Assembly: GCA_016931415.1 (NCBI GenBank)
Contig: JAFGEW010000067.1
Coordinates: 1-34,917, forward strand
DNA from: Verrucomicrobiota bacterium
Lineage (GTDB): Bacteria > Auribacterota > JABMQX01 > JAFGEW01
Length of the DNA stretch: 34,917 nucleotides
Direction: 5' to 3'
Numbering within the stretch: the stretch's first letter is position 1; each line of letters opens with the position of its first letter. Shown here piece by piece: positions 28,355 through 32,285 of this stretch. The notes under the pieces are model-generated. The model made no database searches. It saw only the letters and a list, made by a program, of their open reading frames with translations, and was not told the origin of the DNA. Both the position numbers and the translations under genes were made by a program.

Positions 28355-29365
28355 TCACCCCTGCTGGACGGGCGGTGCGTTCTCTTCGAACAGGGCGAGC
28401 AGGAAGCCTCGCCAGAATACCTGGACACGATAGCCGTGGTAGTGCTCGCCGACCCGGAGGTTTGGCAGTGTCTTGCCCACCGCCGGCTGGTCGGGGCCGA
28501 CGATCTGGTCTTCCCAAGCGAACGTGACGAACTGCGTCGGCAACGTTACGGAACGCGAGTCGACCTGCCCGCGCGGTCTCAGCACGCCGCTCTTGGCCTC
28601 GACAATACTGCTCTGCCCAGACTGGTCGGAAACCTCTTTGAAGATCTGATAATCCACCTGGACGCCCGTGACAGGTGTCCTCGAGGCCAGGACTACATCG
28701 AGCCAGACGGTCTCCTTGCGGCTGACGATCTCGACGACCGTCTTCTCCTTGCCGAACGTCTTGGGTCGACGCTGCTCGAAGCCGGCCGCATGTCGCACGC
28801 GCACGAGGCCCTCGAAGCCGTCCTTGACCTGCCGGGCGAGGTCGGCGGTGCGCGCGTCGATCATATCGGCCTTGATCACGAGCCCTTCCGCTGGCTCGCC
28901 GTTGGGCACCTCGACGAGCACGCGCAAATGGATCGCCTGCACTTCGAGCAACTCGGCGCGGTCACCCTGATGCAGCGTGAGGATTTCCCGCCGCTGGCGG
29001 TCGAGTAGCACCGTGTCGCGCAACGCCTCGACCTGTTCGGCCAACTTGCGGAAGCTGGCCGTGCGTGACCAGCCCTCGATGGGTCGGCCCTGGGCGGGCG
29101 TATAGCGCACCCGGCACCAGACGTCACGCGTGGCGAGGAGCTCAACCTGTGCGCCTTTCGGCACCGTGGCAAGCACCTGTGCGTTCTGGCCGTACAGCGG
29201 CGCATCGCCCTCAGCCTCGAGCATGGTGCCAAACGCCGGCGCGGCGAGGCCCAGGAGCCCGGCGGCAGCGAGGCACGCGGCCAAGCAGCGCCAGGCGGCG
29301 CAACGGCCCCGCATGAGTGGAATCCGGAACCCCTTTTCTTTACCCAACGGGCTACCGCCTGGCAT
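28355..29365 (-). CDS. Exported protein with bacterial SH3-like N-terminal domain
   Basis: 336 residues, family not recognised beyond the first domain. A long basic N-terminus leads to the signal sequence CLAACLAAAGLLGLAAPAFG. Then comes an SH3-like beta domain (LEAEGDAPLYGQNAQVLATVPKGAQVELLATRDVWCRVRYTPAQGRPIEGW), which usually binds cell-wall peptides. A helical region (FRKLAEQVEALRDTVLLDRQRREILTL) and a beta-rich C-terminal domain (VWLDVVLASRTPVTGVQVDYQIFKEV...) follow. The start at ATG 29365 has AGGAGG about 9 nt upstream. ATG 29314 would give a shorter signal peptide but has no ribosome site. A good promoter precedes it, and it is divergent from the ABC permease. Confidence 0.7.
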   Translation of the reverse strand: MPGGSPLGKEKGFRIPLMRGRCAAWRCLAACLAAAGLLGLAAPAFGTMLEAEGDAPLYGQNAQVLATVPKGAQVELLATRDVWCRVRYTPAQGRPIEGWSRTASFRKLAEQVEALRDTVLLDRQRREILTLHQGDRAELLEVQAIHLRVLVEVPNGEPAEGLVIKADMIDARTADLARQVKDGFEGLVRVRHAAGFEQRRPKTFGKEKTVVEIVSRKETVWLDVVLASRTPVTGVQVDYQIFKEVSDQSGQSSIVEAKSGVLRPRGQVDSRSVTLPTQFVTFAWEDQIVGPDQPAVGKTLPNLRVGEHYHGYRVQVFWRGFLLALFEENAPPVQQG

Positions 29366-29413
29366 CGCGCGCCCTCCTGATTGTCGCCCGAAGCTGTGTC
29401 TGCTGTTCGGGGC

Positions 29414-29442
29414 AGTATCGCAGCAGGGCCTCCGGGTGTCAA
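29414..29442 (-). promoter_or_regulatory. Promoter of the SH3-like gene
   Basis: On the minus strand TTGACA (29442-29437), 17 nt, GATACT (29419-29414); the leader would be about 42 nt. Confidence 0.6.
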
Positions 29443-29515
29443 CGAATGCGGAACGGCCGACCGTATTCCGCGGCGCCGAAGGGTGTTTCGGCGTGCCTGC
29501 GCCTGCTCTTGCTGC

Positions 29516-29521
29516 TATACT
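29516..29521 (+). promoter_or_regulatory. Possible -10 element for the ABC-2 permease gene
   Basis: TATACT lies 26 nt before the GTG at 29548. No good -35 is visible at 16-18 nt upstream, so this would be a weak or activator-dependent promoter. Confidence 0.35.
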
Positions 29522-29547
29522 GTGACCAACGTGGTGAGGACCGCGAC

Positions 29548-30522
29548 GTGAACCGGATCTGGGCGATCGGCAGGAATACACTGACCGAGGTGATGCGCAT
29601 GCCGGCCTATGCCATCGTGCTGGCCGTGGGCGTCTGCCTCATCGCGCTCTCGCCGTGGTTCACCATGTTCAGCCTCGGCCACAACACCAAAATCGTCAAA
29701 GAGATGGGGCTGGCCACCGTCCAGCTCGCCGGCCTGCTCATCGCGGCGCTGTCGGCTTCGGCGTCGGTCTCGCGAGAAATCGAGAGCCGCACGGCCACCA
29801 CCGTGTTGAGCAAGCCCGTCGGCCGCATCGAGTTCATTCTCGGAAAATACGCCGGGCTTGTGATGGCGCTCGGCGTGGCGTTCTTTGTGCTCACCGTGGT
29901 CTTGCTGCTCGCAGGGCGGCACGGCACGCTCGACACGGTGCGCGAGACCTACGACTGGCCTATCGTCGTACTTGGCGTGCTGGCGCTCGTGCTGGTGCTC
30001 ACCATGGGGTTCGTCGGCAACTACTTCCTGGGCTGGCACTTCGGCGCAACCTGCGTCTGGACCGCCGTGCCGCTGTTCGGCCTGACGATCTTCGCCGTCT
30101 CGTTCGTGGACAAGAACTGGCACGCCCAGCCGTTCGGCGCCCGCATGGATGCGCAGCTCGTTATCGGCGCCGTGCTCATTCTGTTCGCCATCATGGTGAT
30201 CACCGCAGTAGCGCTCGCGGCCTCGACGCGGCTCAAAGTCGTCGGCACGCTGCTCGTGTGCGTCCTTGTGCTGATGGCCGGGCTGCTCTCGGACTATTTC
30301 TTCAAGCAGGCGGCGGTCAGACCCGGCGTCGCCGGCTGGGCCGCGTGGATCGCGCACGCACTGCTGCCCAACTTCCAGCACTTCTGGGTGGGTGATGCCA
30401 TCATTGGAGAGCGGACGGTGCCGCTCGGCTATCCGCTCATGGCATTGGCCTACGCGGCCCTGTATTCGGTTGGCGCGCTGGCGTTCGCGCTCATGCTGTT
30501 CCAGGAACGCGAGCTGGCGTAG
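29548..30522 (+). CDS. ABC-2 type transporter permease
   Basis: 324 residues with about seven membrane segments (AYAIVLAVGVCLIALSP; VQLAGLLIAALSASASV; AGLVMALGVAFFVLTVVLLLA; IVVLGVLALVLVLTMGFVGNYFLG; TCVWTAVPLFGLTIFAVSF; LVIGAVLILFAIMVITAVALAAS; VVGTLLVCVLVLMAGLLSDYFF). The cytoplasmic loop SREIESRTATTVLSKPVGRIEFILGKYAGL is the ABC-2 coupling motif. Its substrate is unknown. GTG 29548 has GAGGA about 8 nt upstream. Its ATPase is probably the one at the right edge, encoded on the other strand, since the cluster converges here. The TAG stop lies inside the inverted end of a palindromic element. Confidence 0.87.
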   Translation: MNRIWAIGRNTLTEVMRMPAYAIVLAVGVCLIALSPWFTMFSLGHNTKIVKEMGLATVQLAGLLIAALSASASVSREIESRTATTVLSKPVGRIEFILGKYAGLVMALGVAFFVLTVVLLLAGRHGTLDTVRETYDWPIVVLGVLALVLVLTMGFVGNYFLGWHFGATCVWTAVPLFGLTIFAVSFVDKNWHAQPFGARMDAQLVIGAVLILFAIMVITAVALAASTRLKVVGTLLVCVLVLMAGLLSDYFFKQAAVRPGVAGWAAWIAHALLPNFQHFWVGDAIIGERTVPLGYPLMALAYAALYSVGALAFALMLFQERELA

Positions 30523-30671
30523 CGCCGGCGTCCCGCCGGCTGTCGTGCGGGCATCTTGCCCGCACTCCTCGTCAGCCGCGCGCGATACATGCGACGTAGC
30601 TTGCCTCCGGGGGCGGGACGCCCCCGAGACAGCCGGCGAACCCGCCCTTGGCGGGCAAGATGCCGGCGCTA
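30520..30671. repeat. Palindromic (REP/MITE-like) element bridging two converging genes
   Basis: The ends are a perfect 10-bp inverted repeat, TAGCGCCGGC (30520-30529) and its complement (30662-30671). Inside are hairpins at 30524-30540 (GCCGGC/GCCGGC), 30545-30565 (GTGCGGGCA-TCT-TGCCCGCAC), 30608-30626 (CGGGGGCG-GGA-CGCCCCCG) and 30641-30655 (CCCGCC-CTT-GGCGGG). CCGGCTGTC and GACAGCCGG form a further nested pair. The TAG of each end is the stop codon of the permease gene (plus) and of the 538-residue gene (minus). It probably also blocks read-through. Confidence 0.8.
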
Positions 30672-32285
30672 CATTTCCGGCGCGGTGGGCGCTTCTTCTT
30701 CCGGCGGCAGGCCGAGGATGCGGCGCAACTCGTCGCGCAGCGGTTTGGGCATCCCCTCCTCGCTAAGCGCGAAGTCGCGCGCCGCCCTTTTCACGTTATC
30801 CCACGATCCGACGGCCTTGAGGAACCGTTCGGGCGCCCTCTCAACAAAGAGGCGGTGGAACTGCTGCGCCATGATCTCGTGGCCGGCAGCCGCCTCCGCC
30901 TCCCCATACGCCAGCCAGTAGTAGCTCTGGAGCATAAAGCCGACGATGTTGGAGGCGACCTGTTCGTACATCTTGTCATCGAGGTCCTGCTTGACCTGGA
31001 GCAGGACGAATTCCTCGACGGGAAGCTTGTACTCGGGGCGGCCGTACTCGTCGGCGAGGGACTTGAGGTACTCGGCCGCCTTGGCTTTTTCGTTGTAGAT
31101 GTAGAGCGTCACGATCGCGTTGTGCATCCAGTGACGGTAGGCCGAATCGACGCCGCCCTCCTGCTGCTCAGGATAGGTCTCGAAGATCTGGGCAAAATGG
31201 TCGCGCACCCAGTCCGAGAACCGCAGGTCAATGCGGCGATCGAAAAGGCCGCGTGCCGGGTCATAGTAGAGCCGACCGCTCTCGTAGATCTGCACGAGGG
31301 CGAAGTAGACCATCCGCTCGCCGAACATCCGGTTGTCCGTGGGCCGCACGTGCTCGAGCGACTTCGCGCCCCAGTACAGCCCGTGCGCCTCGGGCTGGCG
31401 GAAATCAAGCGGACCGTACTGGTCGATGAGTTGTTTGGCATAGGCCGGGTCGATGCTCCACCTGTCGCGCAACGCACGCGCGCGCAGAAAGGCATCGAGC
31501 GCATCGAGCTCGGGAGAGCCTTCCTTGGCCTCGACAACCGGCTTGACGCCGTCGGGAAGCGCGGCGTGGGCGTTGAGCCAGTCGAGGCCTCTGGCGAGCG
31601 GATCGAACCCGGCGGCGCGCATCGCCTCGACAAGCGCGACCACGGCCCTGTCCTTCATCGGATCGTTGTCCGGGTCGAGCGCGCGGGCGAGCCGACCGTA
31701 GTCGGGCGTCGGCCCGCCCAGAATGGGGTGAAGCGCCGCAGCCATCTGCTGCTTGTAATACCAGTGCGCCTCGTCGGAGTCGCGGCCGACCTTGTGGAAG
31801 TAGATCCACGCCAATTGATGGTGCAGCAGGTAGCTGCTCGGCAAGTAGAGCCGGACGCCGCGATCTCGAAGCTCGGCCAGCCCGTTCTGCACCCAGCGCC
31901 AACGCTCCTCGTAGCCCGTCGGCGTATCGAGCGAGAACGCAACCGAGACGTTGTAGGCCATGTTCCAGGCCGAGAAAACCCACACGTCCTCGATGCCCGG
32001 CTCGAGCTGGGTGATCCAGTTGTAGAGCTGCACGAGCTCGAAGTAGCGCCCCTCGTCCTGCAGCGTCTGGGCCCGCATCCAGAGCCCCATGACGAGCATG
32101 CCGCGAAACGACCCAAGCATCTGGGTGCCCAGCACGATCGAGGGCGGGAAGCTCGCACCCGCCGGTCCGCGCGACCAGGTATCGCGCACCGTCGTGAGCG
32201 AGGTGTGCAGCAAGCTGCTCGAGAGCACCAGCACGACGGCGAGCACAAGGTAGATCGTCCGGCGCCAACGGGTCGGGCTTACCAT
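30669..32285 (-). CDS. Uncharacterised membrane-anchored helical repeat protein of the ABC cluster
   Basis: 538 residues. One N-terminal helix (TIYLVLAVVLVLSSSLLHTSL) is followed by a largely helical soluble part with TPR-like pairs (GRYFELVQLYNWITQLEPGIEDVWVFSAWNMAYNVSV; LRDRGVRLYLPSSYLLHHQLAWIYFHKVGRDSDEAHWYYKQQMA). The segment FRGMLVMGLWMRAQTLQDEG follows the membrane anchor. I recall proteins of this pattern beside ABC-2 transporter genes in Planctomycetota-type genomes but know no function. The tail is acidic and Pro-rich (PPEEEAPTAPEM). ATG 32285 has AGGAGG about 8 nt upstream. It follows the ATPase and permease genes, so it is likely an accessory subunit of that transporter. Confidence 0.7.
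   Translation of the reverse strand: MVSPTRWRRTIYLVLAVVLVLSSSLLHTSLTTVRDTWSRGPAGASFPPSIVLGTQMLGSFRGMLVMGLWMRAQTLQDEGRYFELVQLYNWITQLEPGIEDVWVFSAWNMAYNVSVAFSLDTPTGYEERWRWVQNGLAELRDRGVRLYLPSSYLLHHQLAWIYFHKVGRDSDEAHWYYKQQMAAALHPILGGPTPDYGRLARALDPDNDPMKDRAVVALVEAMRAAGFDPLARGLDWLNAHAALPDGVKPVVEAKEGSPELDALDAFLRARALRDRWSIDPAYAKQLIDQYGPLDFRQPEAHGLYWGAKSLEHVRPTDNRMFGERMVYFALVQIYESGRLYYDPARGLFDRRIDLRFSDWVRDHFAQIFETYPEQQEGGVDSAYRHWMHNAIVTLYIYNEKAKAAEYLKSLADEYGRPEYKLPVEEFVLLQVKQDLDDKMYEQVASNIVGFMLQSYYWLAYGEAEAAAGHEIMAQQFHRLFVERAPERFLKAVGSWDNVKRAARDFALSEEGMPKPLRDELRRILGLPPEEEAPTAPEM

Follow-up and report, generated by a model that had tools for sequence, protein, structure and literature searches.

Head-to-head GTAG-tagged REP dimer with outward TAGs in use as the stop codons of two converging genes

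The 154-bp palindromic element that separates two converging genes in the window (the whole analysed stretch of 34,917 nucleotides) is an ordinary, well-formed dimer of GTAG-tagged REPs, a described class of element, in which both tags happen to be stop codons. REPs are a common kind of bacterial repeat, and TAG is the amber codon. Very probably, the element is a BIME/REPIN-like pair of REPs joined head to head, whose TAG triplets have replaced the stop codons of the two genes, with the end of the permease remaining essentially ancestral. The features are listed below by window coordinates.

30519-30672, no strand: whole element, a head-to-head REP dimer of 154 bp with GTAG outward (from the sequence, the inverted-pair search and a plan matching other copies).
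30519-30540, plus strand: left REP of 22 nt, GTAG tag followed by the palindrome CGCCGGC-GTCCC-GCCGGC (from the sequence, the inverted repeat and the genome copies).
30520-30522, plus strand: TAG of the left GTAG, the stop codon of the permease gene.
30545-30565, no strand: inner hairpin with a 9-bp stem and a 3-nt loop (from the inverted-repeat search and the fold).
30608-30626, no strand: inner hairpin with an 8-bp stem and a 3-nt loop (from the inverted-repeat search and the fold).
30635-30653, no strand: 19-nt stretch splitting the right REP, without counterpart in the copy at C132:10310-10444; its exact edges are ambiguous.
30651-30672, minus strand: tag and arm of the right REP (GTAGCGCCGGCATCTTGCCCGC), with the variant loop ATCTT, the palindrome being interrupted by the 19-nt stretch.
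30669-30671, minus strand: TAG of the right GTAG, the stop codon of the 538-aa gene.
29548-30522, plus strand: ABC-2 type permease gene, as called by the codon model; the longest ORF starts at 29317.
30669-32285, minus strand: 538-aa gene, an ORF preceded on that strand by genes for an ATPase and another ABC-2 permease.

The terminal repeat reported in the first-pass annotation was recovered at both ends in opposite orientation (TAGCGCCGGC at 30520-30529 on the plus strand, with its inverted copy at 30662-30671), and is in fact one base longer at each end, running from GTAG to CTAC over 30519-30672. The element opens with GTAGCGCCGGCGTCCCGCCGGC, and its opposite-strand end is GTAGCGCCGGCATCTTGCCCGC, which matches the degenerate REP pattern with 0 mismatches. 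In the inverted-pair search the terminal arms, of 22 nt each, were 82% complementary; an unpaired GTAG tag is present at both ends of the element, and shuffles of the window gave an expectation of 0 chance matches to the end motif. The annotation did not name the element as a GTAG-tagged REP dimer. It had counted at least four strong hairpins, and the predicted fold contains four (30519-30540, 30545-30565, 30608-30626 and 30641-30655), together with long-range pairing between the ends of the element. The two inner hairpins are short and perfect, and the hairpin at 30641-30655 lies in the 19-nt stretch that splits the right REP. The minimum free energy of the element strand was -112.6, whereas shuffles averaged -81.0 (z -6.95) and none of 200 was as good. 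No match was obtained in an Rfam scan of the window, which thus contains no described RNA family by that measure.

The permease gene on the plus strand and the 538-aa gene on the minus strand converge on the element, and the terminal TAG on each side is an in-frame stop codon (30520-30522 and 30671-30669, respectively), just as the annotation had read it. That both ends of the dimer serve as stops results from its location between the converging genes. The permease ORF (29317-30522, plus strand) matches ABC2_membrane_2 (PF12679), and a later start is likely, the coding call covering 29548-30522. For the 538-aa protein no Pfam match was found at E 0.001.

The repeat is present in many copies. 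In the host genome (4.06 Mb in 134 contigs), the 22-mer end occurs 31 times at ≤3 mismatches, versus a single occurrence for the reversed-pattern control, and the search for further copies that the annotation had proposed thus gave a positive answer. A looser pattern, which also covers a second type of stem (GTAGCACGGGC...GCCCGT), produced 124 genome matches versus 31 for its control. Stem columns covary among the 28 distinct 22-mers, with paired changes between both stem types: the position pair 6-22 is GC in 14, AT in 12 and AC in 2 of them, and the pair 8-20 is CG in 12, GC in 12 and otherwise composed in 4. The composite plan of REP, hairpin, spacer, hairpin and inverted REP recurs elsewhere (e.g., L003 1486-1619 and L005 1501-1635), the inner parts of the dimers differing from copy to copy. 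In the alignment, the copy at C132:10310-10444 agrees with the right end of the window element but is without its 19 nt. REPs of the second type (GTAGCACGGGC / GTAACACGGGC) were also seen clustered at short spacing, at G000:C48:10643-10895, G000:C128:22379-22606 and G000:C133:27685-28170.

Beyond the host, an exact-pattern scan of the species collection returned at least 120 stretches. Among the 80 matches listed, 79 were from named Acidobacteria (Terriglobia, Acidobacteriales etc.), part of the genus names being ones that we take to be acidobacterial, and one was from a Hydrogenophilales MAG. In a set of 59 genomes, comprising the host and its nearest relatives, the REP core at ≤1 mismatch was confined to the host and one genome of the same class. 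Among the dimers counted (18 rows from the own genome, including the window, and 37 in the loci fetched from the species-collection scan, with L014 entered twice), only that of the window has a stop codon at both ends.

The use of the REP TAG as a stop codon was counted in two sets of loci, namely those of the own genome, which are part of the 124 looser-pattern matches, and the fetched loci, which are mostly from Acidobacteria. Genes were called with a home-made codon model trained on the retrieved loci, not with a standard gene finder. Copies were left out if they had no exact GTAG, if they lay <250 nt from the upstream end of the locus or <320 nt from its downstream end, or if their 70-nt context was a repeated one. 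In the own genome (54 REPs), the TAG was the stop codon in 12 cases, no coding-like frame was near in 29, the stop was upstream in 13, and no REP was read past; the corresponding numbers for the 158 REPs of the fetched loci were 15, 83, 58 and 2. Control GTAG tetramers outside REPs were stops in 25 of 936 cases in the own genome and in 104 of 3390 in the fetched loci, and the excess in REPs over these controls carries Fisher p values of 1.3e-7 and 2e-4, respectively.

A coding-like stop was found within -200 to +300 of the REP for 25 of the 54 own-genome copies and 75 of the 158 fetched ones. With such a gene end close by, the excess persists in the own genome (12/25 for REP TAGs versus 25/104 for non-REP GTAGs) and vanishes in the fetched loci (15/75 versus 104/580). 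The notion that TAG coincides with a stop by mere chance, as it might for any GTAG, is thus rejected by the non-REP control unconditionally, and conditionally in the own genome only. What stands out clearly in the fetched loci is that REP TAGs are unconditionally in excess as stops and that read-through is almost absent. Where a frame ends or lies at a REP GTAG, the TAG is its stop in 12 of 12 cases in the own genome (p 1.9e-6) and in 15 of 17 in the fetched loci (p 4.5e-6), as compared with the one third predicted by random phase. Since frames that enter a REP stop at its TAG in this manner, read-through insertions appear to be rare or removed.

The first-pass annotation further held that the element defines both C-termini. 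Judging from aligned protein ends, it does not define that of the permease, because the orthologues in G006, G014 and G021 (36-39% identical), three genomes in which no match to the REP core was found, all stop at the residue at which the window permease stops (RELA/REIA/REIS), two with TGA and one with TAG. The permease C-terminus is thus essentially ancestral, and the element would have exchanged the stop codon letters while leaving the protein end as it was. For the 538-aa protein, no relatives were recovered when the species collection was scanned; its three full-length orthologues (28-31% identical) end nearby, with tails that are not conserved and last residues that are not alignable. 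The annotation had also named an outcome that would speak against its view, a single-copy element combined with orthologues ending at the same residue in its absence; the latter half was observed for the permease, the former was not. At the nucleotide level no empty site was found for the window copy, the nearest full-length orthologues being 28-39% identical.

Two mutually congeneric genomes, G059 and G061, provided ten sites at which the REP TAG is a stop (8 and 2, respectively); for nine of these an orthologue was present in the partner genome, L315 being the exception. Two of the nine share the REP. The seven REP-lacking counterparts differ in length by 0, 0, 0, 0, +1, +2 and -3 residues, and five of them end in TAA or TGA. 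In the -3 case (L299 versus L332), the REP shortened the protein; the +2 case (L270) is a weakly called 126-aa frame, and in one equal-length case (L287/L344) a rearranged REP remnant lies further downstream in the other genome. A route by which REPs insert exclusively 3' of a GTAG already in place was considered and rejected, as it fits one empty site (L336, CTGTAGTCG), while the three other equal-length sites end in TAA. In the same pair of genomes, a different repeat was encountered in the Acidobacteria genome G059 as a palindromic pair of 76 nt, with GTAG tags pointing inward (L247, compared with L125, reverse strand 4434); the pair directly follows a TAG stop, and the corresponding stop in G061, without the pair, is a nearly clean empty site.

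These comparisons bear on the proposal that the element inserted into both coding ends, cutting away the earlier C-termini and setting new ones in their place, which we regard as very unlikely. One of the seven congener comparisons does show a REP shortening a protein, and the unconserved tail of the 538-aa protein would permit a short truncation or extension at that end; against this, the three permease orthologues without the element end at the same residue, as do four of the seven REP-lacking congener sites, and all seven lie within three residues. The coincidence of TAG and stop might also have arisen after insertion, by a deletion that merged the GTAG at a TAG stop already present with that of a REP lying just 3' of it. 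One congener site has the appearance of such an event: G059 reads GTAGCGGTTCTTGTAGCGCCGG, in which the first GTAG is the stop and precedes the REP by 12 nt, versus a single merged GTAG in G061 (GTAGCGCCGG). A small deletion can therefore also yield the coincidence. However, at the remaining sites the REP-lacking relatives have TAA or TGA as the stop more often than TAG, so merging cannot explain most sites without extra changes, and we consider it a rather unlikely general origin.

A different proposal, made in part by the annotation, which had expected probable termination of both transcripts, concerns function, i.e., that the element acts as a bidirectional transcription terminator or as a stabiliser of mRNA 3' ends and is retained between the converging genes for that role. 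The abstract of PMC3733652 puts forward both roles as hypotheses for REPs, and the very stable fold and the placement where two converging genes end are in keeping with them. The stems within the element are, however, not followed by a T-run: a search for intrinsic terminators (GC stem plus T-run) found none inside 30519-30672, its one match (30679-30693) being outside the element. Moreover, the 19-nt stretch is absent from the close relative copy, and the inner parts vary between copies. Such a role, and with it any effect on the transcripts, may exist, yet we view it as doubtful. It is likewise a speculative suggestion, and on balance an improbable one, that REP insertion is aimed at the stop codon or selectively kept there, such that GTAG REPs replace stops in place and leave protein length unchanged. 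If true, these REPs would be stop-codon-replacing elements across species, not random gene-end insertions.

Under the preferred reading, that of a REP dimer whose TAGs replaced the stops of both genes, a REP-associated Y1 tyrosine transposase would presumably act in trans to move the short non-coding REP, whose insertions would be tolerated mainly at gene 3' ends. Where a REP landed within about a codon of a stop, with GTAG pointing out, its TAG could become the in-frame stop. Candidate transposases are encoded in the host genome, in which five matches to PF01797 (Y1 transposase) were detected; among the three of these proteins that were scanned, one passes the cut-off of the NCBIfam model REP_Tyr_transpos NF047646 (113.5 bits versus 80). 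In the fetched flanks of the five genes, several of which lie at contig ends, no REP copy at ≤3 mismatches was found. The 3' end of the best RAYT-type transposase gene (WWDQHLARQREG; L054, position 117, minus strand) is REP-like, with 4 mismatches.

The stop-codon habit of GTAG REPs has already been published. As described in the available text of Di Nocera, De Gregorio and Rocco 2013 (PMC3733652), the ends of GTAG REPs often provide TAG stops, there termed opal, to flanking ORFs; the REPs form head-to-head dimers with structured spacers, and prefer the space between converging or co-directional genes. The window dimer is a clear, doubly loaded example of this published, little quantified donation of stop codons. 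The new contribution is a modest one, consisting of the counts of TAG as a stop with their controls and the evidence that proteins mostly retain their ends. The congener numbers on kept ancestral ends are relevant to the choice between targeted insertion of REPs and a selective filter on their insertions, and the host genome and many Acidobacteria MAG records, among the matches listed, are added to the carriers of the REP core.

The window repeat carries the tag and, next to it, a short palindrome with paired stem changes (the left REP has 22 nt, against 20-40 bp for the palindromes of the class), is multicopy, and occurs mostly outside genes near their 3' ends. In common with the GTAG-tagged REPs of the available text of PMC3733652, the window element thus has the GTAG tag, the short palindrome, the head-to-head dimer with a structured spacer, the location at gene 3' ends and the TAG stops; it differs in that a 19-nt hairpin-forming stretch interrupts its right REP and in that both ends of the dimer act as stops. 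That source sorts GTAG REPs into 24 families. With BIMEs and REPINs, which are mobilised by RAYTs, the element shares two inverted REPs, a short spacer, a dispersed distribution and a RAYT-type transposase encoded in the genome; in the fetched flanks, several of them at contig ends, no RAYT gene with an adjoining REP at ≤3 mismatches was found, and the mobility of the window element is presumed. The SMAG repeats of Stenotrophomonas maltophilia (GTAG families 6 to 9 in the available text of PMC3733652) differ from the window REP in stem and loop. They share its GTAG tag, and one S. maltophilia REP, GGTAGCGCCGGGCCATGCCCGGCG, as given in the available text of PMC2817692, is close to the window REP over the tag and the opening bases of the stem.
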